From Streptomyces sp. JJ38 (GTDB lineage: Bacteria; Actinomycetota; Actinomycetes; Streptomycetales; Streptomycetaceae): a DNA stretch of 64,000 nt. Of the stretch, positions 6,067 to 30,410 are shown one piece after another. The notes under the pieces are model-generated. The model saw nothing but the letters and a program-made list of their open reading frames with translations, ran no database searches and was not told the origin of the DNA. The position numbers were made by a program, and so were the translations under genes. Positions within the stretch are counted from its first letter, which is position 1; each line of letters begins with the position of its first letter. The stretch covers positions 62,001 through 126,000 of the forward strand of contig NZ_JABLSI010000002.1 in assembly GCF_019303475.1 (NCBI RefSeq). Direction: 5' to 3'.

Positions 6067-7287
6067 TCAGCTCAGGCGCTCCAGGACCATGGCCATGCCC
6101 TGGCCGCCGCCCACGCACATCGTCTCCAGCGCGAACTGCTTGTCGTGCCACTGGAGGGAGTTGATCAGCGTCGTCGTGATGCGGGCGCCCGTCATGCCGA
6201 AGGGGTGGCCGACCGCGATCGCACCGCCGTTGACGTTCAGCCGGTCCAGGTCGATGCCCAGGTCCCGGTAGGAGGGGATGACCTGCGCGGCGAAGGCCTC
6301 GTTGATCTCCACCAGGTCCATGTCACCGATGGTCATCCCGGCCCGGGCCAGCGCCTGCCTGCTCGCCTCGACCGGGCCGTAGCCCATGATCTCCGGCGAC
6401 AGTCCGGACACCCCGGTGGAGACGACGCGGGCCAGCGGCGTGATCCCCAGCTCGCGGGCCTTCGTGTCGGACATGACGACCAGGGCCGCGGCGCCGTCGT
6501 TCAGCGGGCAGCAGTTGCCCGCCGTCACCAGACCGTCGGGGCGGAAGACCGGCTTCAGCCCCTCGACGCCCTCCAGCGTGACGCCCGCGCGGGGGCCGTC
6601 GTCCTTGCTGACCACGGTGCCGTCCGGCGTCGTCACCGGCGTGATCTCGCGCTCCCAGAAGCCGTCCGCGATGGCCTTCTCGGCCAGGTTCTGCGAGCGG
6701 ACGCCGAACTCGTCCATGTCCCGCCGGGTGACGCCCTTCACCCGGGCCAGGTTCTCGGCGGTCTGCCCCATGGCGATGTAGACGTCGGGGAGCTCGCCGG
6801 ACTCACGCGGGTCCGTCCAGCCCTCGCCGCCCTGCTCGGCGCGGGCCGCCGTACGGGCCTCGGCGTCGGCGAAGACCGGGTTGTGGGTGTCCGGCAGCCC
6901 GTCCGAGCTGCCCTTCACGCTGCGGGAGACCGCCTCGACGCCCGCCGAGATGAAGACGTCGCCCTCGCCCGCCTTGATCGCGTGCATCGCCATCCGCGTC
7001 GTCTGCAGGGACGACGAGCAGTAGCGGGTGATGGTGCAGCCGGGCAGGTGGTCCATGCCGAGCTGTACGGCCACCACGCGGCCGAGGTTGTGGCCCTGCT
7101 CACCACCGGGGAGGCCGCAGCCCAGCATCAGGTCGTCGATGTCCCGCGGGTCGAGCTGCGGAACCTTGGCCAGCGCGGCGCGCACGATCTCCGTGGTGAG
7201 GTCGTCGGGGCGCACGTCCTTGAGAGAGCCCTTGAAGGCGCGCCCGATCGGCGAGCGGGCGGCGGAAACGATCACTGCTTCGGGCAT
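6067..7287 (-). CDS. Acetyl-CoA C-acyltransferase (thiolase)
   Basis: A 406-residue thiolase. The acyl-accepting cysteine is C90 in [14 protein letters not shown] ([11 protein letters not shown] type), [10 protein letters not shown] with the catalytic histidine, and the C-terminal [13 protein letters not shown] with the second cysteine are all present, so the enzyme should be active. Thiolases either condense two acetyl-CoA or cleave 3-ketoacyl-CoA in beta-oxidation; with no beta-oxidation partners nearby the direction cannot be decided. It is divergent from the Bax-inhibitor-1 gene and ends at a strong hairpin. Confidence 0.93.
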
Positions 7288-7613
7288 GACGACTCCAGGA
7301 AGACGGACGGGCCGGAACTCCTCGCGAAGCTACCCGTGCGTAGCGCCGAGGTCACGGTTCCCGTCGTGTGAAACGGCTCGCAACAGCGGCCCGACCGGCG
7401 CGACCGGCCTCGGCACGGACCGCGGCCGGCAGGCTTCGGACCACCGCGCGGACCCCCGAAGGACCCGTGCACGGGAACGCCTGTACGAAGGGTGTCACGT
7501 AAAGGGAACAATTTCCTCTCTTCCCCGCGTTGGAGCAGTGGACTACCGTGCGGCCTTTGCTCAACCATTACCCTGATCGAAGACGCCGTGCCGTGCGGCC
7601 ATGGAGGAGTGAG
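7288..7613. other. 326-bp divergent intergenic region (thiolase / BI-1)
   Basis: No gene seen. The segment around 7495-7520 is the least GC-rich part and holds the small dyad GGAA-CAAT-TTCC (7505-7516). It probably contains the promoters for both flanking genes, but I could not assign clear -35/-10 pairs. Confidence 0.4.
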
Positions 7614-8444
7614 ATGAGGAGCAGCAACCCGGTCTTCTCGCGACGGGGGTTCAGTCGGGACGGATCCGCCGGCTTCCAGGCCGGCCAGCCGCAGGCCGGG
7701 AACCCCTACGCTGCCCAGGCGGGGAACCCGTACGCCCAGGCGCAGCCGGGCCTGGGCCACGCGCCCGCGCCCGCCGCCCCGCGCACCGACCGCATGACGA
7801 TGGACGACGTGGTCTCGCGCACCGCGATGACCCTCGGAACCGTCGTCCTGACCGCCACCGCCGCCTGGATCCTGAACGTCGGCCTGGGCATCGCCATCGT
7901 CGCGCTGCTCGTCGCCTTCGGCCTGGGCATGTGGCAGTCCTTCAAGGCCAAGGCCTCCCCGCCGCTCATCATCGCCTACGCCGTCTTCGAGGGCGTGTTC
8001 CTGGGCGCGATGAGCAACTACATCAACACCTACGCCCCCGGGGCCGCCATGCAGGCGGTCATCGGCACCATGGCGGTGTTCGGCGCGGTGCTGTTCCTGT
8101 ACAAGTCGCGGATCATCCGGGTCAACGCCCGGTTCGCCCGCTTCGCCATCGCCGCCGGTATCGGCTACGGCATCCTCTGCCTGGTCAACCTCGGCTTCGC
8201 GCTCTTCGGCGCGGGTGACGGCTGGGGTTTCCGCACCGGCACCATCGGCATCCTCATGGGCATCGCCGGTGTCGTCATCGCCTCGCTGTTCCTCGCCCTG
8301 GACTTCAAGCAGGTCGAGGACGGCATCGCGTACGGCGCCCCGCGCGAGGAGGCCTGGCTGGCCGCCTTCGGCCTGACGATGACCCTGGCCTGGATCTACT
8401 TCGAGTTCCTGCGCCTGGCCTGGATCCTCAACAGCAGCGACTGA
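7614..8444 (+). CDS. Bax inhibitor-1 / YccA family membrane protein
   Basis: A 276-residue integral membrane protein. The first 70 residues are a hydrophilic Gly/Pro/Gln-rich tail with the imperfect repeat AGNPYAAQAGNPYAQAQ. The rest has about seven hydrophobic segments ending FGLTMTLAWIYFEFLRLAWILN, the signature end of the TMBIM/BI-1 family. In bacteria these proteins act as pH-sensitive calcium leak channels or protease modulators. The ATG has GGAGG 6-10 bases upstream; a longer frame is open upstream but lacks a site. It is a single-gene unit followed by a perfect terminator. Confidence 0.9.
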   Translation: MRSSNPVFSRRGFSRDGSAGFQAGQPQAGNPYAAQAGNPYAQAQPGLGHAPAPAAPRTDRMTMDDVVSRTAMTLGTVVLTATAAWILNVGLGIAIVALLVAFGLGMWQSFKAKASPPLIIAYAVFEGVFLGAMSNYINTYAPGAAMQAVIGTMAVFGAVLFLYKSRIIRVNARFARFAIAAGIGYGILCLVNLGFALFGAGDGWGFRTGTIGILMGIAGVVIASLFLALDFKQVEDGIAYGAPREEAWLAAFGLTMTLAWIYFEFLRLAWILNSSD

Positions 8445-15665: not shown

Positions 15666-18197
15666 ATGTTCCGTACCGCTGTGCGCAACGTGCTCGCGCA
15701 CAAGGCCCGGTTGCTGATGACCGTGCTCGCCGTCCTGCTCGGCGTGGCGTTCGTCGCCGGCACCCTGGTGTTCACCTCGACCGTCTCGACCGCGTTCCAG
15801 AAGAGCTCCGAGAAGGGCTTCGAACACGTCGACGTGGCCCTCCGGCCCGACGCCGACGCGTCCACCACCCCCGGTGACGCCCCGGCGCTGCGCCAGGAGC
15901 TGCTGGACGAGGCCGCCGGGCTGCCCGGGGTCGCGCGGGCCACCGGCACCGTGTCCGGGTTCGCCGCCCTGGCGGACCGGGACGGCGACCTCGTCGGCCA
16001 GGGCTGGTCCTCACGCGGCACCAACTACTCCCCAGGGGCCGACGGTTCGGACGACCGCTACCCGATGCGGAGTGGACGCGCGCCGCAGCGGCCCGGTGAG
16101 ATCGCACTGGACGCGAAGACCGCCGAGCGCACCGGCTACGAGGTCGGTGACACCGTGCGGATGTCCGTGGACGGACCCGTGCGCACCGAGACGGTCACCG
16201 GCGTCTTCACCACGGACGACGGCAACGTGGCCGCCGGCGGCACGCTCGTCCTCTTCGACACCGCCACGGCCCAGCGCCTCTACGGGGAGCCGGGCCAGTA
16301 CGACGAGATCACACTGACAGCGGCCGACGGCACCTCGCAGGCGGAGCTGAAGCGGACCGTGGAGGACATCCTCCCGGACACCGCCGAGGCCATCACGGGG
16401 GCCAGGCTCGCCGACGACCAGTCGCGGATGATCGAGTCGGAGATGAGCGGCATGCAGACCAGCATGCTCGTCTTCGCGGGCATCGCCCTCTTCGTGGGCG
16501 TCTTCATCATCGCCAACACCTTCACCATGCTCGTCGCCCAGCGCACCAAGGAGCTGGCGCTGCTGCGGGCCGTGGGGGCGAGCAGGCGGCAGGTGACGCG
16601 GTCGGTGCTGATCGAGGCCACCGTCGTCGGTCTGGTCGCCGGGGTCGCGGGCCTGGCCGCCGGGGTCGGCATCGGGGCCGGGCTGCGTTCGCTCATGGGC
16701 TCCCTCGGCGTCACCGTCCCGGACGGCCCCCTCCAGGTGGGCACGGGCGCGATCGTCACCTCGCTGCTCGTCGGCGTCGTGGTCACCGTGCTGGCGGCGT
16801 GGCTGCCCGCCCGCCGGGCCGCCAAGATCCCGCCGGTCGCCGCGATGAACAGCGTCCACGCGACGGCCACGGGCCGCGGGCTCCTCGTCCGCAACACGAT
16901 CGGTTCGCTGCTGGCCGCCGGCGGTGCGGCGCTGGTGCTGGCCGGCACCGGCATGGACGCGGACGCGGCCAAGGGCCCGATGGGGCTCGGCGCCGCCCTC
17001 CTGGTGATCGGCGTCTTCGTCCTGACGCCGCTGCTGTCCCGGCCGCTGATCGCCGCCGCGTCCCCGCTGCTGCGCGTCTTCGGGATCTCCGGGAAGCTGG
17101 CCCGGCTGAACGCCGTCCGCAACCCGCGCCGCACGGCCGCCACCGCCTCCGCGCTGATGATCGGGCTGACCCTGATCACCGGGATGACGGTGCTGGCCGG
17201 GGGCGCCCAGAAGGGCATCGAGAAGATGGCCACGGACGCGCTGAAGGCCGACTACGCCGTCTCCATGGCGAGCTTCAACCCGCTGGCCCCCGAGGTGGCG
17301 AAGTCGCTGGCCGACGACGAGCGGGTGACGGCGGTCAGCCCGCTGCGCAGCTCGCCGGCCGAGATCGACGGGTCCACCGAGTACCTGACCGGCGTCAACG
17401 GACGGGACCTCGGCGAGCTGCTGTCGCTGGACTTCGCCTCCGGCTCCCTGGAGGGCCTCAGCGGCGACGCGGCCATCGTCGACGCCGACACGGCCGAGGC
17501 GTACGGCTGGACGCGGGGCTCCACCATCCCACTGACCTACGAGGACGGAGAGCGCGGGGAGCTGAGCATCACCGGCGTCTACGAGGGCAACGAGATGCTC
17601 AGCGGCATCATGCTCGACACCGCCACCCTGGACCCGCACATGGAGCGGGTGACGGACCTGCAGGTGCTGGTCAAGACCGAGGGCGGGGCGAGCGAGGCCA
17701 CGCAGAACGCGCTGGAGCGGGCGCTGGGCGACAACCCGGCCATCCTGGTGCAGGACGAGGGCGACATCTCCGAGGAGATCGCCTCCATGTTCACCCTCAT
17801 GCTCAACATGCTCTACGGGCTGCTGGCCATGGCGGTCGTCGTCGCGGTGCTCGGCGTCGTCAACACCCTGGCGATGTCCGTCTTCGAACGGTCGCCGGAG
17901 ATCGGCATGCTGCGCGCGGTGGGCCTGGACCGCCGCTCGGTGAAGTCGATGGTCCGGCTGGAGTCCGTCGTCATCTCCCTCTTCGGCGGGGTGATGGGCC
18001 TCAGCCTCGGGGTCTTCTTCGGCTGGGCGGCCGGGGAGATCGTCGGCGGCGTCCTGCCGACGTACGAACTGGTCCTGCCCTGGGGCCGGATGGGCCTCTT
18101 CCTCCTCCTGGCGGCCCTGGTCGGCGTGCTGGCCGCCATGTGGCCCGCCCGGCGGGCCTCCCGCCTCAACATGCTCGCTGCCATCAAGGCCGAGTGA
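15666..18197 (+). CDS. FtsX/MacB-type ABC transporter permease
   Basis: An 843-residue permease built as a tandem duplication. Each half has an N-terminal transmembrane helix (FRTAVRNVLAHKARLL start; second near LARLNAVRNPRRTAATAS) and an extracellular MacB-PCD-like domain. Each ends in an FtsX domain with three helices (about 270-395 and 720-840). Repeated motifs RTKELALLRAVGASRRQ and SPEIGMLRAVGLDRRSV show the duplication. It forms a complex with the preceding ATPase, likely as export or mechanical coupling across the membrane. A strong terminator follows. Confidence 0.93.
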   Translation: MFRTAVRNVLAHKARLLMTVLAVLLGVAFVAGTLVFTSTVSTAFQKSSEKGFEHVDVALRPDADASTTPGDAPALRQELLDEAAGLPGVARATGTVSGFAALADRDGDLVGQGWSSRGTNYSPGADGSDDRYPMRSGRAPQRPGEIALDAKTAERTGYEVGDTVRMSVDGPVRTETVTGVFTTDDGNVAAGGTLVLFDTATAQRLYGEPGQYDEITLTAADGTSQAELKRTVEDILPDTAEAITGARLADDQSRMIESEMSGMQTSMLVFAGIALFVGVFIIANTFTMLVAQRTKELALLRAVGASRRQVTRSVLIEATVVGLVAGVAGLAAGVGIGAGLRSLMGSLGVTVPDGPLQVGTGAIVTSLLVGVVVTVLAAWLPARRAAKIPPVAAMNSVHATATGRGLLVRNTIGSLLAAGGAALVLAGTGMDADAAKGPMGLGAALLVIGVFVLTPLLSRPLIAAASPLLRVFGISGKLARLNAVRNPRRTAATASALMIGLTLITGMTVLAGGAQKGIEKMATDALKADYAVSMASFNPLAPEVAKSLADDERVTAVSPLRSSPAEIDGSTEYLTGVNGRDLGELLSLDFASGSLEGLSGDAAIVDADTAEAYGWTRGSTIPLTYEDGERGELSITGVYEGNEMLSGIMLDTATLDPHMERVTDLQVLVKTEGGASEATQNALERALGDNPAILVQDEGDISEEIASMFTLMLNMLYGLLAMAVVVAVLGVVNTLAMSVFERSPEIGMLRAVGLDRRSVKSMVRLESVVISLFGGVMGLSLGVFFGWAAGEIVGGVLPTYELVLPWGRMGLFLLLAALVGVLAAMWPARRASRLNMLAAIKAE

Positions 18198-18221
18198 GGG
18201 CAGGCCGGGCGGAGCGGTGAG

Positions 18222-18263
18222 GGCGGGCGGGGCCCGGTGCTGGCGCACCGGGCCCCGCCCGCC
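18222..18263. terminator. Perfect 19-bp GC hairpin after the ABC operon
   Basis: Two 19-base complementary arms (GGCGGGCGGGGCCCGGTGC and complement) surround the 4-base loop TGGC, 24 bases past the permease stop. Confidence 0.88.
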
Positions 18264-18386
18264 GTCGCGAGCCCGTCACGGGCCGGCCGCGGCGCGGGTG
18301 CGGCGGGAACCGCTGGGGAGCGAAAGGGGATGGTGCCGTCGCACGCTTCACCGAAGCAATGCAAGCGCGTTCTGAGGAGGAACCCG

Positions 18387-18887
18387 GTGCCTGCTCTGCT
18401 CCACTCCCCCAACGCCAGGCCGAACGCGCGCACCGCTTCCGGCACATCGCGGGGGAACCCGTCCGGCTGGTCCCGGCTGCTGGGTCTGGCCGCCTGCCGG
18501 GGCACCCGCTTCCGGTTCCAGCCCGCCGCCTCCGAGGGCGTCGCCCGGTGCGTCGTCCTGCGGGTCAAGCGCGGCAAGCGGACGCTGCGGCACGTGCTGG
18601 CCGTCGTCCCAGAGGGCGGCGCCCTCGACCTCGTCGCGGTGGCCCGGCTCTACGGCGCCGGATCGGCGAGCTTCGTCACTCCGGAGACGGCCGCCTCCGT
18701 CACTGGCTTCAGCGGGCCTCTGGCGCCGTACTCGGCCGATCCGGCGGTGGAGTTGATCGTGGATCAGCGCCTGGGCGGGCTGCCGGAGATGGTCTTCAAC
18801 GACATCCGGCCCGACGTGTCGATCGCCTTCGACACGGGCGACCTCCTCGCCCTCGCCCGCCCGCGGCTCGGCGCCATCACCGCCTGA
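18387..18887 (+). CDS. YbaK/EbsC-type aminoacyl-tRNA deacylase-like protein
   Basis: A 166-residue protein with the YbaK/ProX fold pattern: RCVVLRVKRGKRTLRHVLAV, a central GAGSASFVTPETAASVTGF and the Gly-rich end GGLPEMVFNDIRPDVSIAFD. Family members hydrolyse mischarged Ala-, Cys- or Ser-tRNA. The GTG start was chosen because GAGGAGG lies 7 bases upstream; the frame is open earlier but runs into the terminator hairpin. The conserved lysine normally used by YbaK proteins is not certain here (KRGKR region), so activity is not assured. Confidence 0.75.
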   Translation: MPALLHSPNARPNARTASGTSRGNPSGWSRLLGLAACRGTRFRFQPAASEGVARCVVLRVKRGKRTLRHVLAVVPEGGALDLVAVARLYGAGSASFVTPETAASVTGFSGPLAPYSADPAVELIVDQRLGGLPEMVFNDIRPDVSIAFDTGDLLALARPRLGAITA

Positions 18888-19109
18888 CCCCGGCCCTCTT
18901 CGTCTCCCGCTCTGCCGCTCTGCCGCTCTGCGGGGCGGGTCAACGGCGCCCGCGGCTCCGCATATGCCGGAAGAAACGGCCGAGGAAAACGCCGGTCGGC
19001 CCGTTGTACCGCGACGCAAGGAAAGGTGAATCGGCGGCTCCACACACTGGGAATGCGGCGGTAAGCTGGCAGTGACCGAGGGGGAACGACTCGGGAAGCC
19101 ATGGTGCGA

Positions 19110-19146
19110 CTCTCGTTGTGTCGAAAGAATCCACGACAGTCGAGAG
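19110..19146 (+). promoter_or_regulatory. 5' leader hairpin of the small peptide gene
   Basis: CTCTCG/CGAGAG (6 bp) and the inner TGTCG/CGACA (5 bp) form a stem whose 3' arm ends against the G-rich ribosome site of the following gene. It could occlude ribosome entry. Possible regulation, not shown. Confidence 0.4.
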
Positions 19147-19157
19147 GGGGCAAGGGA

Positions 19158-19322
19158 ATGCGCATCAAGCTGAGCAACCTGGTCGGAATCCTCGCCGCAG
19201 CCGCGTTCTCATTGGGGGTTGCCATCACCGGGCCGAACGTCGCGGACACTGCGCCGGGTGTCGCCATCAGCGAGCAGGGCGGTGGAACCTTGGGCACGTT
19301 CGACGACAAGGGCACACCCTGA
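19158..19322 (+). CDS. Small secreted peptide precursor next to the large SARP
   Basis: A 54-residue precursor. It has a basic start (MRIKLSN), a hydrophobic core (LVGILAAAAFSLGVAI), and a short exported part of about 25-30 residues ending VAISEQGGGTLGTFDDKGTP. GAGAGGGGGCAAGG provides the ribosome site. It converges on the SARP/NB-ARC/TPR gene and the two share one terminator hairpin. I recognise no family. The pairing resembles Gram-positive peptide-receptor modules, where a TPR regulator senses the product of a neighbouring exported peptide gene, but that role is inference. A chance frame is the alternative. Confidence 0.65.
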   Translation: MRIKLSNLVGILAAAAFSLGVAITGPNVADTAPGVAISEQGGGTLGTFDDKGTP

Positions 19323-19347
19323 CCGTCACCCGCTGACCGCAGCCACC

Positions 19348-19394
19348 GCGTCGGCTCTTCTGCGGAGGATCTCCCTCCTCAGAAGAGCCGACGC
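19348..19394. terminator. Shared convergent terminator overlapping the SARP stop codon
   Basis: GCGTCGGCTCTTCTG (19348-19362) pairs perfectly with 19380-19394. The second arm contains the last codons and part of the stop of the SARP gene. The inner GGAGG/CCTCC extends the stem. It serves both the peptide gene and the regulator gene. Confidence 0.85.
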
Positions 19395-22300
19395 GCGTTT
19401 TCCGGCACGCCCATCTGCTCGAACAGCGCATCGGCCCGGCACCGATAATCGTGCGCCGCGTCCTCGTCTCCAACGCTATTGCTCGCATCGGCCAATCCGT
19501 CAAGAGCCTGCGCCATCTCATAACGGAATTTGATACTCATGGCCACGTCATAAGCGCGGCGCCCGCTGGCCAGTGCCAACTTCGGTTCGCCCAACGCCTG
19601 ATAGACGCGGCCGGCGATGCTCTCCACCGTCGCGCGGCGGATCGTCACGTCCTTCATCGCGGGAATGTGCAGCGCCTGCTCGATGTACTCCCGCGCCTCC
19701 CGGTGGTGCCCGAGCATGATGTGGGCCCCGGCGTGCTGTGCCAGGATCAGCGCCGTCGTGGCGGGGCCGTCCAGCTCCTCGCACAGCCGCCTGGCCGCGC
19801 CGAGCTCCCTCAGGGCCTCCGCCGGACGGCGCAGCCCGAGCAGGGCGAAGGCGAGGCTGGAGCGCGCGACGATCGTGTGGCCCAGGTCCCCGATGTCCTG
19901 CCACAGCTCAATGGCCCGCTCCGCGGCGTCGGCGGCCTCCTCGAACTTGCCCAGCCGGGCGGTGACGGAGCTGAGCACGTTGAGCGTCCCGGCCTGTTCC
20001 CGCGTCGTGCCGAGCCTGCGCTCCATGAGGCTGGCGCCCTCCAGGCAGCCGAGCGCCTGATGGAACTCGCCCAGGCTGTTGTAGATCTGGCCGAGGCGCC
20101 CCATGCACCCCGCCTCGCTCTCCTCGTCGCCGAGCGAGCGGGCCAGTTCCAGGGCCTCCTCCAGGCAGACGATGCCCTTCTGGAAGGCCCCCACCATCCA
20201 GTGCTCCACGGCGAGGATGGTGAGCACGAGGCGCAGCATGTCCGGGTCACCCAGGCGGCGGGCGGCGGCGACGGCCAGCCCGCACACCCGGCGGGCGTCC
20301 TGCGGGTAGTTGCGGATCGCCGAGTGGAAGGACAGCGTCCGCGGCAGGTAGGCGGCGTGCCGGTCCATGCCGTGGCGGTAGGCCAGCTCGACGGCGGCGA
20401 TCAGGTTGTCCCGATGCGCGTCGAGCCAGTCCAGCGCGGAGGCGCGGTCGGCGAAGGGCGGCGGCTCGGGGGCCCGCGTCGGCAACAGCTCGGCGTGCCG
20501 GGAGCGTTCGGGGAACAGGGCGTCGCAGGCGCGCTCGGCGTGCACCACGTAGTGGTCGAGCAGCCGCCGTACGGCCTTCTCCTCCCGTGCGGCGGTCGTC
20601 GCGCTGCGCAGCCCGAGCGCGAAACTGCGCACCAGGTCGTGGAAGCTGTAGTAGCCGGGCTCGGGTTCCTCGATCAGATGCGCGTCGAGCAGCACCTCCA
20701 GCGCGTCCTCGGCCTCCAGGGCGTCACGGCCGAGCAGCGCGGCGCCCTCGTCCGCCGTGATGGTCTGCCCCGGGTGCAGACCGAGCATCAGGAAGTCCGC
20801 CCGCTGGGCCTCGGTCATCGCCTGGTAGGACATCCGCAGGGCGACGGCGACGCTGCGGCCCGCGGAGTTGAGCTCGCTGAGCCTGCGCGTCTCGTCCCTC
20901 ATGCGGTCGGCCAGCCGCTGGATCGTCCAGTGGGAGCGGTTGCGCAGCCGGGCGGCGGCGATGCGGACGGCCAGCGGGAGGCGTCCGCAGAGCCGGATGA
21001 GCTCGGCCGCGGCCTGTGGCTCCCGTTCCACGCGTTCGGCGCCGAGGGTGCGGCGCAGCAGGTCCAGCCCGTCGACGTCGGAGAGCGTGCCGAGGGAGAG
21101 CCAGTCGGCGCCGTCCAGGTCGACGAGGCGGGGACGGCTGGTGACGAGCGTGAGACAGCCGGAGGAGGCGGGGATCAGCGGCCGGACGTGGTCGGCGTCG
21201 GCGGCGTTGTCCAGCACGACGAGCAGCCGCAGCTGCTTGGTGATGGACCGCCACAGCGCGGTGCGGCCCGCGGGGGCGGTGGGCATCTCCTCGCTCTGCA
21301 CCCCGGCCGCCGCGAGCAGGGCCTCCTGGGCCATGGACGCGCTCAGGGGCTCCTGGCCCGGGGTGTAGCCGCGCAGGTCCACGAAGAGCTGGCCGTCGGG
21401 ATAGCCCTCGGCCAGCCGGTGCGCGGCCCGGATGGCCAGCGCCGTCTTGCCGCTGCCGCCCATGCCGTCGATGGCGATGATCCGCGCGCACTCGCCGGGG
21501 GACCGGCGGACGGCGGCGGTGATCCAACGCAGCTCGTCGGCCCGGCCGGAGAAGTCCCGCAGGTCGTAGGGAAGGGCGCTGGGCGCGGTGGTGGACACGG
21601 GCGACCGCTGCACGGGCGACGGCGTGCCCCCGGAGCCCGGTTCCGTGGACGGGGCTTCGCCGCCCGCCGGGTCCGAGCCGGCGGGCCCGGGCGGGCCGGT
21701 GCCGGGGCCACCGGTGCCGGAAGGGCCGGGGCCCGGGTGCGGCTCGGGTGCTGTGGGCGGCTCGGGCGCCGGGGCCGATAACGACGCCGTGGCCTCGCCG
21801 GACGCGGCGTCCGCCGTGGGCGGTGCGGCACCGGGCGCCGGGCCGGGCTCGACGCCCCCGGAGCCGGGCGGGGACGGCTCACCCGCACAGGACGCAGGGA
21901 CCGCGGAGGCCGTGGGAGGCCCGGAGGCCGCGGGGGCCCCGGAGGCCGCGGGGGCGTCGGCACCCGCGGCAGCCCCCGCGACAGCCGAAGCACCCGACAC
22001 CCCGGGGGCGCCGGGCCCGGCGTCAACGGACCCGGGGCCAAACGGGGCGGGAGCCGGGGCGGCGGAGGCGGCGGAGGCCGTGACGGCCTGGGCCGAGGAG
22101 GTGTCCGGTGCCTCAAGGGCCGGGCTGTGGCGCAGGATGCTCGCGTGGAGGCGGCTCAGTTCCACGCTGGGGTCGATGCCCAGCTCGTCCGAGAGCAGGG
22201 TGCGGACCCGGCTGTACTCCTCCAGGGCCTCCGCCTGCCGCCCCGTGCGGTAGAGCGCGAGCATGAGCTGGCCGCGCAGCGTCTCGCGCAGCGGGTACTG

Positions 22301-22885
22301 GTTGACCAGAGCGCGCAACTCCCCGATGACGGCGGGCGCCTGACCGGCCGCGAGCTGGAGGTCGAAAAGTTGTTCGCAGGCGCCGAGGCGCTGTTCCTCC
22401 AGCGCGGCCGAGGCCGAGTCGATCACGGGGCCGCCGAAGCCGGCCATCACGGGGCCGCGCCAGAGCTCCAGCGCCGACTGGAGCGCGGTGACGGCACCGG
22501 CGCGGTCTCCGTCGACGACGGCCTGCCGGGCCCGGCTCACCCCCGCACGGTACTGGGCGAGGTCGAGTTGCTCCTCGGCGATGACGGCGCGGTAGCCGGG
22601 GCCGTCGGTCTGGATCAGTTCGGCACCGTCGGGAATGCGCTGGCGCAGTTCGGCGACGGCCTTGCGGATCTGGTGGAAAGCGCTGCTGGGTGGCGAGCTG
22701 TCCCAGGCGGCCTCGACGAGCCGGGCGACCGGCACCACCCGGCCGGCCTCCAACAGCAGCATGACCAGAGTGCGTTCGCGCAGCGCGCCGCCGAGGCGCA
22801 GTGGCGCTCCGCCATACCAGCCTTCGAGCGTGCCGAGAATACGGAAACCGGGTCCATTCGTCGCCCGTGCAGCACCCAGCATCAT
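19379..22885 (-). CDS. AfsR-like SARP regulator with NB-ARC and TPR domains; contains a TTA codon
   Basis: A 1168-residue regulator. In order: winged-helix DNA-binding domain (about 14-95), BTAD domain (about 105-255, LDLAQYRAGVSRARQ to LGIDPSVELSRLHASIL), a 180-residue Pro/Ala/Gly linker, an NB-ARC ATPase (P-loop GMGGSGKTALAIR near 470, VVLDNAADADHV, TSR) and a C-terminal TPR array (about 830-1160). This is the AfsR layout of pathway-level activators. One leucine in the linker (codon at 21781-21779, residue 369) is TTA, the only in-frame TTA I found in the window, so translation should require bldA. It is divergent from the IS701-like gene. Confidence 0.93.
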   Translation of the reverse strand: MMLGAARATNGPGFRILGTLEGWYGGAPLRLGGALRERTLVMLLLEAGRVVPVARLVEAAWDSSPPSSAFHQIRKAVAELRQRIPDGAELIQTDGPGYRAVIAEEQLDLAQYRAGVSRARQAVVDGDRAGAVTALQSALELWRGPVMAGFGGPVIDSASAALEEQRLGACEQLFDLQLAAGQAPAVIGELRALVNQYPLRETLRGQLMLALYRTGRQAEALEEYSRVRTLLSDELGIDPSVELSRLHASILRHSPALEAPDTSSAQAVTASAASAAPAPAPFGPGSVDAGPGAPGVSGASAVAGAAAGADAPAASGAPAASGPPTASAVPASCAGEPSPPGSGGVEPGPAPGAAPPTADAASGEATASLSAPAPEPPTAPEPHPGPGPSGTGGPGTGPPGPAGSDPAGGEAPSTEPGSGGTPSPVQRSPVSTTAPSALPYDLRDFSGRADELRWITAAVRRSPGECARIIAIDGMGGSGKTALAIRAAHRLAEGYPDGQLFVDLRGYTPGQEPLSASMAQEALLAAAGVQSEEMPTAPAGRTALWRSITKQLRLLVVLDNAADADHVRPLIPASSGCLTLVTSRPRLVDLDGADWLSLGTLSDVDGLDLLRRTLGAERVEREPQAAAELIRLCGRLPLAVRIAAARLRNRSHWTIQRLADRMRDETRRLSELNSAGRSVAVALRMSYQAMTEAQRADFLMLGLHPGQTITADEGAALLGRDALEAEDALEVLLDAHLIEEPEPGYYSFHDLVRSFALGLRSATTAAREEKAVRRLLDHYVVHAERACDALFPERSRHAELLPTRAPEPPPFADRASALDWLDAHRDNLIAAVELAYRHGMDRHAAYLPRTLSFHSAIRNYPQDARRVCGLAVAAARRLGDPDMLRLVLTILAVEHWMVGAFQKGIVCLEEALELARSLGDEESEAGCMGRLGQIYNSLGEFHQALGCLEGASLMERRLGTTREQAGTLNVLSSVTARLGKFEEAADAAERAIELWQDIGDLGHTIVARSSLAFALLGLRRPAEALRELGAARRLCEELDGPATTALILAQHAGAHIMLGHHREAREYIEQALHIPAMKDVTIRRATVESIAGRVYQALGEPKLALASGRRAYDVAMSIKFRYEMAQALDGLADASNSVGDEDAAHDYRCRADALFEQMGVPENARRLF

Positions 22886-22979
22886 GAGCTAGCCAGCCCC
22901 CCGTCGCTGTACACCGCCCTGCCTGAGTATCAGCGTTCGATTCTAAGCGCGCGGTCAAGGGCTCAGCAATGAACGGACA

Positions 22980-23039
22980 ACGGTGAGCAACCGTGCGATC
23001 ACGGGACTTTGAAAGGTGAACGGTAACCGATCGGAACCG
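22980..23039. promoter_or_regulatory. Operator-like dyads between the SARP and IS701-like genes
   Basis: The 242-bp divergent gap holds ACGGT-GAGCA-ACCGT (22980-22994) and the interrupted palindrome CGGTAACCGATCGGAACCG (23021-23039), built on CCGATCGG. Both lie where promoters of the two genes should be. The binding protein is unknown; autoregulation by the SARP is one option. Confidence 0.4.
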
Positions 23040-23127
23040 GGGCGGTAAGGACGCAGGACGGGACGGAGCAACCCTCCAGGCAACCGTGGATGCACTGCAT
23101 CCGGCAGGACGTCGGTTAGGGGGAACG

Positions 23128-24285
23128 ATGGCTACAGGCCATGACCTGGTAGGGAATCTCTGTGAGGGGCTCTTCACCTCGCTGCTGCGCCGGGACCAGC
23201 GGCTGAAGGCGGAGAGCTACGTGCGGGCCCTGCTCGCGGCCCAGGGCCGCAAGACGCTGCGGAACATCGCCGAGCAGATGGGTGGTGAGGCGGCGCAGCA
23301 GAGCGTCCACCACTTCATCAGCTCCTCCTCCTGGGACTGGTCGGCCGTGCGCCGCTCCCTCGCCCAGCGCGTCGACGCGGTGCTGGCCCCGCGCGCCTGG
23401 GTGGTGCGCCCCCTCGTCATCCCCAAGGCCGGACCGCACACCGTGGGCGTGGACCAGCAGTTCGTGCCGCACCTGGGGCACACGGTCAACGCCCAACAGG
23501 CGTTCGGGGCCTGGCTCGCCTCCGAACGGGCGGCGGTGCCGTGCAACTGGCGTCTGGTGCTGCCCGCCAGCTGGCTGGAGGACCCGCTGCGGCGGCACCG
23601 CGCGTGCATCCCGGAGACGAGTCGCGCGGCGGGACTCGAGGAGTGTGCGAGCGACGCGGTGCGGCAGCTCGAGAGCACCCGGGCCGGGCGACGCCCCGTG
23701 GTCGTGGACGCCGAGGGGCTCGACGTGCGCCGCTGCGTCCGCCACTTCGGCGAACGCCGCTCGCCGCTGCTGGTGCGGATCGGCCCGCACACCCCGGTCC
23801 GGGTGGACAACACCCGGCTGCACGCCTACAGCGACAAGCCGGTGACGGCCGGGCAACTCGTCGCGACGATGAAGCAGTTCCGCCGCCAGGCCGCGAGCCC
23901 GGGCGGATACGGAGGGCACGGCGCGGACGTCGGCGTGGCGGCCGCCATCCCGGTGCTGCCGGGGGAGTTCGACGGGCCGGGCCCCCGGACCCCGATGCTG
24001 CTGCTCGCCGACTGGCCGAGCGCCCCGCACGGCGACGCCCGGATGTGGCTGGCACGGGGCGCGGGCACGCCGGTCCCTGGGCTGCTGCGGCTGGCCCGGC
24101 TCGCGGACACCGCCGAGCGGGACTGCGCCGCCGTCTCCGAACGCATCGGGATCCGGGACTTCGCCGGGCGCTCGTTCCAGGGCTGGCACCGCCACATCAC
24201 CCTCGCCTCGGTGGCCCATCTGGCGGCTGTCCTGACCACGGCGGAACGGCACGCTCCGGCCCCCGCCCTCTCCCGGGTCGCCTGA
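23128..24285 (+). CDS. IS701-family transposase homologue, probably catalytically inactive
   Basis: A 385-residue DDE_5/IS701-like protein: the N-terminal block RKTLRNIAEQMGG...SVHHFISSSSWDW is typical, as are NWRLVLPASWLEDPLRR and the second-Asp block RPVVVDAEGL. Where active family members carry the first catalytic Asp in a DDTG-like motif before PKxG, this protein reads PLVIPKAGPHTVGV, with no acidic residue. No terminal inverted repeats or target duplications were found around it. Similar solitary, intact homologues recur in polyketide clusters, so I read it as a domesticated protein, perhaps regulatory, not a mobile element. Confidence 0.8.
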   Translation: MATGHDLVGNLCEGLFTSLLRRDQRLKAESYVRALLAAQGRKTLRNIAEQMGGEAAQQSVHHFISSSSWDWSAVRRSLAQRVDAVLAPRAWVVRPLVIPKAGPHTVGVDQQFVPHLGHTVNAQQAFGAWLASERAAVPCNWRLVLPASWLEDPLRRHRACIPETSRAAGLEECASDAVRQLESTRAGRRPVVVDAEGLDVRRCVRHFGERRSPLLVRIGPHTPVRVDNTRLHAYSDKPVTAGQLVATMKQFRRQAASPGGYGGHGADVGVAAAIPVLPGEFDGPGPRTPMLLLADWPSAPHGDARMWLARGAGTPVPGLLRLARLADTAERDCAAVSERIGIRDFAGRSFQGWHRHITLASVAHLAAVLTTAERHAPAPALSRVA

Positions 24286-24333: not shown

Positions 24334-24387
24334 CCCTTCAAGCACTGTGCGAGCCGCGTTCCAGACGCCCTGAGGACAGTGAGGCCC

Positions 24388-26235
24388 ATGATGCGACTCC
24401 CGCCCACCGAAGACCGGGTGGCCGAGCTGGAGCGGCTGCTCGGAGACCCGCGAGAGACGACCCTCCCGCTCTCCGACGCGGCGGTGCTGGCGGCGGACCG
24501 ACGCGGCGAACTGCCGCTGGGCGGCGAGCCGACGCTGGCCTCCTTCGGCCTGCACGAGGAGTTCGTCCCAGCTGACCTCGGCGGCCGGCTCACCGGTCTG
24601 GACACCGTGGCCCGCCTGCTGCGCGCCGTCTACCGGCGGGACAGCGCGCTCGGCGGCGGCTACGGCACCGCCACCCTGCTGCCCGCCCTGTCCGTGTGGC
24701 ACTACGGCGACGCCGCTCAGCGCCGGGCCGCGGCCACCGTCGTGCTGGACGGCGGCCGACTCGTCGCCGCGCCCCGCGAGGCCCCGGCCGCGGCCCGGGC
24801 GGGCATCGGGCTCCGCGCCACCGTGGACGCGGGCGGACTGTCCCTGTCCGGGCACAGCGCGCCCCTCCTCAACGCACCCCGTGCCGACGCCTTCGTCGTC
24901 CTGGCCGAGCACGGGGACGGGCACGGCCACGGAGGCGGGCACGGGCCCGAGGGGAGGTCCGGGGCGGGACCGGGAGCGGGCGGTGGCGACACCGCGATGC
25001 TGCTCCCCCGCCAGGAGCTGCCGGCCTCCGCCGTGCGCGAGCTGCCGTCCCGGGAGCTGGCCGGTCTGCGGCGGCTGCCCGTGGGCGAACTGCGCTTCGA
25101 CGGCTGGCCGGTGCGCGCGGGCCGGGTGCTGGGGACCTGCGGGCACGGCTCCGCCGCGCTCGTGCGGGCGCATCAGATGGCCCGTCCCCTGGTGCCGGCC
25201 ATGGCGATCGGCTGTGCCGACACGGCCCTGCGCTCCGTGCTGTCCGTCGTCCTGGCCGGAGGAGACAACGGCCACTCCTTCGGTACCCGTTACTCGCAGG
25301 AGGTCATCGCCTCCGCCTTCGCGGACCTGCTGATCGCCGACTGTCTGTCCCTGGCCACCCTCCGGGCCCTGCACCTGCTGCCCGCACTCTCCAGCCTCTG
25401 GTCGGCCGCCAGCACCTACCTCGGGCACCGGCTGCTCCAGCAGAGCACCGGCGACCTGCTGCCCGTCCTCGCGCACGCCCGGCACGACGGCGTCGGCTAC
25501 GGGACGTTCCGCAAGCATCTGATCGACCTCTCCGAACTGCCGCCGGGCCGGACCGGCGCGGTGGCGGCACTCTCCTCCCTGGTGCCCCAACTCGCCACCC
25601 TGGCCCGGCGGTCCTGGAAGCGTTCTCCGCACACGGCGCCAAAGGAGCTGTTCGCGCTGCACGACCCGCTGCCGCCGCTGGACGCCTCCCGGCTCAAGGT
25701 GGCGGCGGCCGACGACCCGTTGGCCTCGCTGCTCGCCGACGTCGACGGGCTCCTGGACGGCGGCCCCGCGCTCGGCTCCACCCACGGCGGGGTGGTGCGC
25801 GAGCGGGCCCGCGCCCTCGCCGGGCAGCTCGGCGTCCTGGCCGGGGAGTGCCGGGAGCTGCCCGAGCGGGACCCGGCGGTGCTGGCCAATCCGCGCGGCT
25901 ACGCGCTGGCCGAGCGCTACACGCTCCTCACGGCGGGCGCCGCCTGTCTGGGCCTGTGGCGCTACGGCGTCCGGCGGTCCGGCTGCGGCTTCCTGTCGGA
26001 GCCCGCCTGGCTGGCCGCGGCGCTCGGCCGGATCTGTCTGCGGCTCGGCCTGCCGGGTTCGGAGGCCCGCCGGGAGGACACCGACGCCCTCGTGGCCCAC
26101 GTGGTGACGCGGTACCACCAGGGCCGCTCCCTGGACCTGTACGGAACGGTGCTGGGCGGGGCCGCGGGCGACGGGCCGCCAGCCTCGGCGGCCGCCCCCG
26201 TCCCGTCGACATGGCAGGCGGTCGCACGGAGTTAG
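24388..26235 (+). CDS. Acyl-CoA dehydrogenase/oxidase-like protein
   Basis: About 615 residues, longer than standard acyl-CoA dehydrogenases (about 390) and closer to acyl-CoA oxidases. The N-terminal half has HEEFVPADLGGRL and ALGGGYGTATLLPALSVWHYG, and the middle has a helical domain (HQMARPLVPAMAIGCADTALRS). A His/Gly-rich insert (GDGHGHGGGHGPEG) interrupts the beta domain. I could not place the usual catalytic Glu, so the reaction is open. Similar proteins sit next to IS701-like and phosphopantetheinyl transferase genes in aromatic polyketide clusters. Start uncertain between two adjacent ATGs. Confidence 0.75.
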   Translation: MMRLPPTEDRVAELERLLGDPRETTLPLSDAAVLAADRRGELPLGGEPTLASFGLHEEFVPADLGGRLTGLDTVARLLRAVYRRDSALGGGYGTATLLPALSVWHYGDAAQRRAAATVVLDGGRLVAAPREAPAAARAGIGLRATVDAGGLSLSGHSAPLLNAPRADAFVVLAEHGDGHGHGGGHGPEGRSGAGPGAGGGDTAMLLPRQELPASAVRELPSRELAGLRRLPVGELRFDGWPVRAGRVLGTCGHGSAALVRAHQMARPLVPAMAIGCADTALRSVLSVVLAGGDNGHSFGTRYSQEVIASAFADLLIADCLSLATLRALHLLPALSSLWSAASTYLGHRLLQQSTGDLLPVLAHARHDGVGYGTFRKHLIDLSELPPGRTGAVAALSSLVPQLATLARRSWKRSPHTAPKELFALHDPLPPLDASRLKVAAADDPLASLLADVDGLLDGGPALGSTHGGVVRERARALAGQLGVLAGECRELPERDPAVLANPRGYALAERYTLLTAGAACLGLWRYGVRRSGCGFLSEPAWLAAALGRICLRLGLPGSEARREDTDALVAHVVTRYHQGRSLDLYGTVLGGAAGDGPPASAAAPVPSTWQAVARS

Positions 26236-29579: not shown

Positions 29580-30410
29580 GTGCGATTCAATCTCATCGGC
29601 CCGTTCGAAATCGTCAGTGACGACGGCAGGACGCATCTGCCCAGTACCCCCAAGGTCTGCCAGACGCTCGCCCTGCTGCTGACCCGGCCCAACGAAATCG
29701 TGACCTCGGACTGCCTCATTCAGGAACTCTGGGGCGAACGGCCGCCCCGCAGCGCCATAACGACGCTTCAGACGTACATCTACCACGCCCGGCGCATGTT
29801 CGAGAGTGAGCAACTCATTCCCTCCGAACGGGCCCTGCTGGTGACCCACGCTCCGGGATATCTGATCGCGGTGGAGGACGACGAGGTCGACATCCGGATC
29901 TTCGAACGGCTGGTCGCCCGCGCCCACACCGAGCTGAGCCAGGGGCAGCCGGCCGCCGCGGCCGGGCACCTCAACCGCGCCCTGTCCCTGTGGCGGGGGC
30001 CCGCGCTGTCGAACATTCCCGCCGGCGACATGTTGGGCGGTCACATCGTCCACCTGGAGGAGGTGCGCATCCGGGCCCTGGAGCTGCGGATCGAGGCCGA
30101 CAACCAGCTCGGGCGGCAGCGCGAGTCGATCCCGACGCTGCGCAAGCTGGTCAACGACTACCCGCTGAACGAGTGGTTCCACGGGCAGCTCATCGCGGCG
30201 CTCGGCGCGGCGGGGCGGCGCGCCGAGGCGCTGCAGGCCTACCAGAACCTGCGCCGCATCCTCCACGACGAGCTGGGGCTCGAGCCCAGCCCCGAGCTGC
30301 AGCGCCTGCAGCTCCAGGTCCTCAACCCCGCTCCGTCGGACAGCGCTTCGTCGACGCCGGTGGGCGTCGCCCAGCCGCGGGACCAGCTGCGCATCCCCAC
30401 GTTCGCCTGA
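29580..30410 (+). CDS. SARP-family pathway activator (small, ActII-ORF4 type)
   Basis: A 276-residue regulator. The winged-helix OmpR-type DNA-binding domain is at about residues 1-95 (STPKVCQTLALLLTRPNEIV, GERPPRSAITTLQTYIYHARR). The BTAD domain is about 100-250 (RALSLWRGPALSNIP, DELGLEPSPELQRLQ). This is the size of RedD/ActII-ORF4 activators, which bind direct heptamer repeats at cluster promoters. The GTG start has GAGGAG 8-9 bases upstream. No TTA codon. Two candidate target sites lie downstream (30561 and 32529). A perfect terminator hairpin follows. Confidence 0.94.
   Translation: MRFNLIGPFEIVSDDGRTHLPSTPKVCQTLALLLTRPNEIVTSDCLIQELWGERPPRSAITTLQTYIYHARRMFESEQLIPSERALLVTHAPGYLIAVEDDEVDIRIFERLVARAHTELSQGQPAAAAGHLNRALSLWRGPALSNIPAGDMLGGHIVHLEEVRIRALELRIEADNQLGRQRESIPTLRKLVNDYPLNEWFHGQLIAALGAAGRRAEALQAYQNLRRILHDELGLEPSPELQRLQLQVLNPAPSDSASSTPVGVAQPRDQLRIPTFA

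Follow-up and report, generated by a model that had tools for sequence, protein, structure and literature searches.

A convergent gene pair as a candidate peptide signal and SARP/NB-ARC/TPR receptor in Streptomyces

Does a small open reading frame (ORF) that faces a large SARP gene in Streptomyces sp. JJ38 encode a peptide that this regulator senses? We addressed this question in a 64,000-nucleotide stretch of contig NZ_JABLSI010000002.1 (positions 62,001 to 126,000; hereafter, the window), in which a 54-amino acid (aa) ORF (19158–19322, plus strand) converges on the gene for a 1168-aa SARP/NB-ARC/TPR regulator (19379–22885, minus strand). An earlier note on this DNA had proposed the two as a secreted peptide and its receptor, and the arrangement itself was confirmed by the ORF, its translation and domain matches. 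We propose, with a probability of roughly 0.65, that the small gene encodes an autoinducing peptide that would be exported, processed and sensed by the TPR domain of the SARP. The observations that carry this proposal are the anatomy of the two genes, their conservation, the selection acting on the peptide, the geometry of its promoter, the co-variation of its core with the TPR domain and the predicted fold of that domain.

Conservation and selection of the peptide precursor

The ORF at 19158–19322, the proposed pro-signal, translates to MRIKLSNLVGILAAAAFSLGVAITGPNVADTAPGVAISEQGGGTLGTFDDKGTP. Residues 1–24 (19158–19229, plus strand) form a signal-like N-terminus, as judged from hydrophobicity and charge, with a basic start followed by a hydrophobic run. 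The C-terminal DDKGTP (codons at 19302–19319, plus strand) is the counterpart of a short core that occurs in relatives as DDKGPT, DDRGPT, DDQGPT, ENQGPT, DNQNPT, DSKGPT, DDHGPS, SDEGPN, SDVGPH and others, often with VI directly after it; the window core is transposed, with G-T-P instead of G-P-T. The typical precursor starts with M(G/R)xK or a similar sequence and continues with a hydrophobic run, a spacer and the core. Precursors in the counted set contained one to six core copies, with numbers varying between close relatives, and the highest copy number observed was that of the L045 precursor (about 7180–7875, minus strand), in which 14 units of the DEGPN type, 12 of them exact, were counted by eye. 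The closest relative of the window locus, L014 of S. chumphonensis (SARP 73% identical), encodes a 52-aa counterpart with a C-terminal EDKGNP.

Pfam and NCBIfam look-ups identified no family that fits the 27 peptides tested, giving weak scattered matches only. The Phr pro-peptide family TIGR04429 matched one of the 27 (E 0.073) and did not match the window peptide at E ≤ 1. These look-ups bear on the idea that the precursor is the source of a secreted peptide with a bioactive or structural role, such as a ribosomally synthesized and post-translationally modified peptide (RiPP), that is merely regulated by the SARP. Several loci do adjoin biosynthetic genes, and some RiPP precursors have multi-copy cores. 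The lack of a fitting family speaks against this idea, as does the absence of a modifying enzyme shared by those plasmid neighbourhoods for which a gene table was read (flanks were not systematically compared), and a co-variation of the core with the TPR domain, as described below, would be unexpected for such a product. We consider this explanation quite improbable.

Conservation of the peptide was examined from the side of the receptor using one scan of genome contigs with the SARP, from which 80 of 89 related loci were kept. After a fragment (L063) was excluded from all counts, these comprised 51 near SARPs (42–73% identical) and 28 far SARPs; one near SARP without downstream DNA (L033) was also excluded, leaving 50 evaluable near SARPs. 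A profile match on the opposite strand within 1.2 kb of the SARP was found beside 40 of the 50 at E ≤ 0.01 and beside 43 at E ≤ 0.1, of which only 4 and 7, respectively, lay outside the training set of the profile (36 near loci and the window, first chosen by start codon, ribosome-binding site (RBS), charge and hydrophobicity). Under the same rule, the far SARPs gave 0/28 matches at E ≤ 0.01 and 1/28 at E ≤ 0.1 (L079, E 0.037, about 0.7 kb away). The earlier note had made its proposal depend on conservation of the peptide frame beside orthologous regulators, and such conservation is what these counts reveal. Two further near loci, L045 and L027, had a peptide by eye. The peptide was distant from the SARP stop in L018 (0.7 kb) and L027 (1.0 kb), and in L019 it lay on the 5′ side of the SARP. 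The near group consists mainly of Streptomyces, with some Kitasatospora and Streptacidiphilus and a sole Saccharothrix member (L049) that has no peptide.

In a leave-one-clade-out analysis, 19 of 20 clades reached E ≤ 0.04 for one million sequences; the window reached 0.014 with L014 also omitted, and L016 failed (1.8). Among eight plasmid records with this SARP, four contained a peptide profile match at E ≤ 0.01 and one more (L140) a peptide recognized by eye; four of these five peptides are annotated as hypothetical proteins.

Searches that began with the peptide gave a corresponding picture. A first search with the single sequence found matches at E ≤ 0.01 in 7 of 199 genomes, but six of these matches were weak (about 20–24 bits), and a profile was needed. 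A 27-peptide profile matched 79 places in 75 of 392 Streptomyces genomes at E ≤ 0.001. This prevalence is a lower bound, since scoring was confined to 17 to 24 candidates per genome, of the 100 to 300 that most genomes offered. We opened the window, the 29 best loci and 10 places hand-picked from the other 49. A convergent SARP was present within the flank of about 1.5 kb at 27 of the 29 best loci (window excluded) and at 9 of the 10 weaker places. One of the two exceptions, L094, is compatible with a contig break: 224 bases separate it from the start of its contig, and in the same genome the SARP stops about 100 bases short of another contig's end. At the other, L117, the only SARP of this type in the genome (E ≤ 1e-10) lies about 32 kb away, and the peptide adjoins a gene with an XRE-type helix-turn-helix/ATPase product. 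The peptide in a duplicate row of this locus, L122 (6430–6687, minus strand), has a good SARP box (12/14) and lies near a condensation-domain gene.

In a further draw, 29 of 293 genomes of the order had matches at E ≤ 1e-4, and all 16 new loci that were fetched had the SARP. The sets overlap, in that the peptide was identical to a training peptide in 9 of the 29 best loci and 7 of these 16. In a draw from the phylum, 4 of 296 genomes matched (window included), and only the match of the window was credible; the three outside the order were rejected, as their flanks contained no SARP and they were located in longer frames.

We then compared amino-acid and silent changes along the peptide in 15 close pairs, which are partly non-independent, with the core defined by pattern on the first member. 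Amino-acid changes affected 5 of 294 core positions, 42 of 359 N-terminal positions and 163 of 652 other positions, and codon changes at unchanged residues affected 49/289, 24/317 and 95/489 positions, respectively. In the core, a protein change of 1.7% thus accompanies a silent change of 17%. Since its amino acids are nearly invariant while its silent change is similar to that of the remainder, the core appears to be held at the protein level. The ratio of nonsynonymous to synonymous change (dN/dS) was 0.6 or lower in 18 of 21 peptide pairs. A short ORF in high-GC DNA might be open by chance alone, with a terminator or promoter beneath it as the conserved element. The dN/dS values, the low protein change of the core at substantial silent change and the recurrence of the frame at many loci make that explanation so improbable that we reject it. 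The peptide ORF is non-random, being a recurrent frame under purifying selection with a conserved promoter.

SARP-type promoter of the peptide gene

Upstream of the peptide ORF, five in-phase heptamers with 11-bp spacing (GGGAATG, GGTAAGC, AGTGACC, GGGAACG and GGGAAGC; 19049–19099, plus strand) were identified, the last two forming the core pair of a SARP-type box. A −10 element, GACTCT (19108–19113, plus strand), is located exactly 8 bp past the last heptamer and 44 nucleotides ahead of the ATG. This box ranks first in the 64-kb window, although it is itself part of the scoring matrix. The upstream pattern at the peptide genes resembles GGTATCG-N4-GGGAACG-N4-GGGAACG. A heptamer pair of at least 12/14 was found at 11 bp in 31 of 37 loci and at 22 bp in 22 of 37, with other spacings between 7 and 24 giving 0 to 7 loci; such a pair occurred in 0.5% of base-shuffled sequences. 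The motif xAxxxT followed the last in-phase heptamer at exactly 8 bp in all 37 loci and at each other offset from 3 to 15 in none, with the caveats that this register rule was fixed after the sequences had been seen, that four similar loci were anchored by hand and that many of the loci are related. In 42 further rows, a pair of at least 11/14 was present in 37 and one of at least 12 in 29, whereas random stretches from these loci reached the two scores in 6.1% and 2.8% of cases; among the rows are two non-peptides (L119 and L132), a duplicated locus (L117/L122) and loci closely related to training loci. In SARP promoters, as described in PMC10936776, repeats lie 11 or 22 bp apart and one repeat lies 8 bp from the −10 element. 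The peptide promoters fit this geometry in both the 8-bp register and the spacing peaks at 11 and 22 bp.

A promoter of this type would also be expected in a cascade like that of AfsR and AfsS, in which the SARP switches on a small-protein gene beside it, and the protein made is a downstream effector that never binds the SARP. AfsR does activate the adjacent small gene afsS (PMC10972967, PMC10936776), and the S. coelicolor system, as presented in PMC10936776, is alike in placing a SARP-NOD-TPR regulator beside a small gene with a SARP-type direct-repeat promoter. The pair studied here differs in that its small gene is convergent and has a signal-like start and a conserved core, and its regulator is not an AfsR equivalog by NCBIfam score. 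A basic, signal-like N-terminus and a short conserved core within a fast-changing frame are not what such an effector predicts. AfsS, for its part, has repeats. Further evidence against the cascade comes from the regulator, which scores 524.9 bits against a cut-off of 1430 for the NCBIfam AfsR family, and from the core, whose variation tracks that of the TPR domain but not that of the DNA-binding domain. We therefore regard an AfsS-like role as unlikely.

The regulator and co-variation of its TPR domain with the core

The proposed receptor (19379–22885, minus strand) contains a BTAD domain (residues 107–251; 22133–22567, minus strand; E 1.9e-43), an NB-ARC domain (residues 467–688; 20822–21487, minus strand; E 5.7e-11) and a C-terminal TPR domain (TPR_12, E 1.7e-19), modelled as residues 835–1168 (19382–20383, minus strand) and proposed here as the peptide-binding site. 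With its OmpR-type DNA-binding, BTAD, NB-ARC and TPR domains it belongs to the large SARPs, the Trans_reg_C match being sub-threshold (23.2 bits, cut-off 26.2). Its best sequence matches in the PDB are AfsR chains; orthology with AfsR was rejected on the score against the equivalog NF053617 given above. The linker between BTAD and NB-ARC (21566–22123, minus strand) is long and rich in Pro, Ala and Gly, and the segment preceding NB-ARC is about 120 residues longer than in L014.

The linker bears the only TTA codon of the regulator gene (codon 369; 21779–21781, minus strand). The earlier note had suggested that the pair is gated by bldA. The window SARP does contain a TTA codon, as do 22 of its 51 near relatives, where some of the codons may precede the true start because SARP starts were set mechanically at the furthest upstream codon; the positions of the codons vary and none of the 37 peptide genes contains one. 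Gating by bldA is only suggested by this codon distribution.

Models were predicted for residues 442–1168 and for residues 835–1168, with mean predicted local distance difference test scores of 90.6 and 95.2, respectively. In the VIA comparison, the TPR-only model matched seven entries of pheromone-bound Rap, among other TPR proteins, with Z scores of 28.7–26.5. These included a phage Rap with its pheromone (Z 28.7, root-mean-square deviation (rmsd) 3.8, 315 residues aligned), Rap with the competence and sporulation factor (Z 28.1, rmsd 3.6, 313 aligned) and RapF with an inhibitory peptide (Z 28.0, rmsd 3.6, 312 aligned). The corresponding Z scores were 23.7 for NprR, 22.9 for AimR and 23.7 for LGN. 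The likeness of the predicted fold to Rap, NprR and AimR says nothing of function.

From residue 760 onward, 34 positions were at least 85% conserved in 52 near SARPs and shared by less than 30% of the 28 far SARPs, a count that is inflated near the C-terminus by gaps in the far group. These group-specific positions include R962, R1083, N1089, R1093, H1108, R1121 and E1123. N1089 and H1108 are altered only in the window and L014, the two members with the transposed G-x-P core, which form one lineage; N890 is altered in the window, L014, L030 and L051.

The distance between cores correlated with that between TPR domains when the DNA-binding, NB-ARC and arm distances were controlled for (partial Mantel test with 24 non-redundant pairs, r 0.397, p 0.001, with p-values being optimistic owing to shared ancestry), and a first run with 25 pairs gave the same picture for the core. 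Given the TPR distance, the core had no link to the NB-ARC (0.016), DNA-binding (−0.067) or arm (−0.307) regions. The N-terminus of the peptide showed no positive link to the TPR domain given the three other domains (r −0.159, p 0.88); it correlated with NB-ARC (0.333) and the arm (0.407) given the TPR domain, for which we have no explanation. Two findings make physical linkage a less likely source of the core–TPR co-variation: the N-terminal part of the peptide fails to co-vary with the TPR domain, and the arm has no positive partial correlation with the core.

The same co-variation and promoter evidence would fit a peptide that remains intracellular or membrane-bound and keeps the SARP inactive, as an inhibitor or anchor in a negative feedback, with no exported and cut product. 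The N-terminus could serve as a membrane anchor, and the effect of the peptide on the SARP may have either sign. The tandem cores, however, ranging from 1 to 14 and variable among close relatives, fit better with the release of many identical units, and the basic N-terminus would predict an outside location of the C-terminus. On balance, we give a retained inhibitor only a small share of the probability.

Several observations weigh against a sensed, exported peptide. The dN/dS value of the window–L014 pair is only 0.6, and 3 of the 21 pairs lie at 0.83–1.13. No peptide was found beside four of the 50 near SARPs (L012, L021, L046 and L049) or in three of the eight plasmid records (L133, L134 and L139). 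The signal-like N-terminus was called from simple rules, and the co-variation test is based on 24 related sequences with a hand-set core. In the VIA comparison, APPBP2 with an RxxGP degron (Z 31.0, rmsd 2.9, 322 aligned) and MalT domain III (Z 30.2, rmsd 3.4, 325 aligned) stand above Rap; the top Foldseek matches of the longer model are the STAND-TPR protein 6mfv and LGN, with no RRNPP receptor among the 50 matches listed. ATP binding is described as relieving the inhibition of AfsR in vitro, without a named ligand (PMC10936776). Finally, the window copy itself may be atypical because its core is transposed and its SARP departs at otherwise conserved TPR residues. Nevertheless, conservation of the core, multi-copy precursors, core–TPR co-variation, the SARP-type promoter and a TPR model that aligns closely with Rap, among other TPR proteins, together support the peptide–receptor pair that the earlier note had envisaged, as far as sequences and models can.

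Proposed working and setting of the pair

Under the proposal of a sensed, exported peptide, we infer export, cleavage, import, binding, the activating sign and control of the neighbouring cluster. The SARP would activate the peptide promoter via the 11-bp-spaced heptamers, and the precursor would be exported through its signal-like N-terminus. Cleavage would free a short core peptide, which in the window is probably DDKGTP, present in one copy, or a C-terminal fragment somewhat longer than that. This peptide would be re-imported, probably by an oligopeptide permease; the genome of the window has about seven OppA-type loci and one clear copy of the peptide. Peptide uptake as a Streptomyces signal is described for the BldK oligopeptide permease of S. 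coelicolor (PMC11303876), which we take as a lead only. The SARP domain of AfsR is kept inhibited by its NOD and TPR domains (PMC10936776). A core peptide bound to the TPR domain would lift the corresponding NB-ARC/TPR inhibition, and the peptide gene (autoinduction) and adjacent pathway genes would switch on with density or mycelial mass.

This working resembles that of the RRNPP systems (Rap–Phr, NprR–NprX, AimR–arbitrium and others) in that a small pro-peptide with a secretion-type N-terminus (here by simple rules) adjoins an intracellular TPR receptor. The predicted TPR fold gives good alignments to Rap, NprR and AimR, as it does to other TPR proteins. RRNPP receptors have 250–500 aa in the RRNPP_detector definition (PMC10075063), whereas the regulator here has 1168 aa with SARP and NB-ARC domains. 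RRNPP systems belong to Firmicutes, in contrast to the different phylum, convergent genes, up to 14 core units and SARP box on the peptide gene found here. Because the receptor lies outside the length definition and the Phr family model is unmatched, the pair would work like an RRNPP system without being classed as one. Our best reading is an RRNPP-like working with a different receptor architecture and multi-copy precursors. The yeast alpha-factor precursor likewise carries several identical peptide units in one exported precursor, but it is eukaryotic and acts through a membrane receptor.

RslR3 and PolY are comparable in being large SARPs whose genes are cluster-situated. RslR3 turns on the gene of another SARP, rslR2, and has been proposed to act once a signal has activated it; no cognate peptide is described in the available passages of that paper (PMC7917814). 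The word ligand does not occur in the main text of the AfsR paper (PMC10936776), and no peptide signal is named for large SARPs in the accessible parts of PMC10972967, PMC10936776 and PMC7917814. A literature search by title, abstract or passage, with subscription papers and preprints outside its range, yielded no description of such a peptide–SARP pair. The quorum-sensing signals of Actinomycetota are typically small molecules made by enzymes, according to PMC10075063.

With less assurance than for the pair itself, we lean towards the view that Streptomycetaceae own a family of intracellularly sensed peptide pheromones, with single- or multi-copy precursors, dedicated SARP-STAND-TPR receptors and, closing a positive loop, transcription of each peptide gene by its own receptor, through which biosynthetic clusters are turned on. 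The cores and the TPR domains would have co-diversified into private dialects (DDKGPT, DDHGPS, SDEGPN, DNQNPT, SDVGPH and DDKGTP). If true, this would provide a concrete candidate class for peptide signalling in Streptomyces, and silent clusters could be woken directly if the natural switch of a cluster-situated SARP is a short peptide that can be synthesized. Since the predicted cores are six to nine residues long, the proposal is testable at once.

More distant SARPs (L050, L078 and L079) face a different convergent, exported-looking peptide (in L050 at about 7462–7665, minus strand) with a C-terminal NTQWD or NTVWE, possibly a second peptide class to judge from these sequences. Six of 245 genomes of the order matched it at E ≤ 1e-4, two of them strongly.

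Between the convergent genes of the window lies a strong hairpin (approximately 19345–19398), whose 3′ arm covers the SARP stop codon; the region 19310–19410 has a folding energy of −54.5 kcal/mol (z −6.0). The earlier note had read this hairpin as a terminator shared by both genes. The hairpin and its overlap with the stop codon are present, and a comparable hairpin covers the SARP stop codon of L014; its role as a terminator is plausible. As a defining feature of the pair, a shared terminator was rejected, since the stop-to-stop interval is strongly structured in only some of the 37 loci and a scan of 18900–23200 detected zero consensus terminator-like sites. An Rfam search of 18000–24000 returned zero families at the gathering score.

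The regulator has as neighbours an IS701-family gene (23086–24285), a phosphopantetheinyl transferase, an acyl-CoA carboxylase subunit, a small SARP (29580–30410) and a polyketide-cyclase protein, because of which a biosynthetic-cluster setting is likely. A TTA codon in the IS701-family gene (codon 11 of the mechanical ORF) was discounted, as it precedes the likely start, ATG 23128, which has a good RBS. Ahead of this gene, which is divergent from the SARP, weak SARP-like repeats with xAxxxT occur at 23044–23075 (plus strand), their 9/14 score being at chance level for the window. A 618-aa ORF at 24379–26235 (plus strand) has a coding-type GC bias but matches neither Pfam at 1e-5 nor NCBIfam at 1e-10.

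A second predicted SARP-type promoter was found by matrix scan at 18305–18347 (plus strand), with three in-phase heptamers and the −10 element CACGCT. Its box is the second best of the 64-kb window, and base-shuffled windows would be expected to contain 0.2 boxes per 64 kb at that score. It lies upstream of a tRNA_edit-domain gene, a candidate target that probably starts at GTG 18388.

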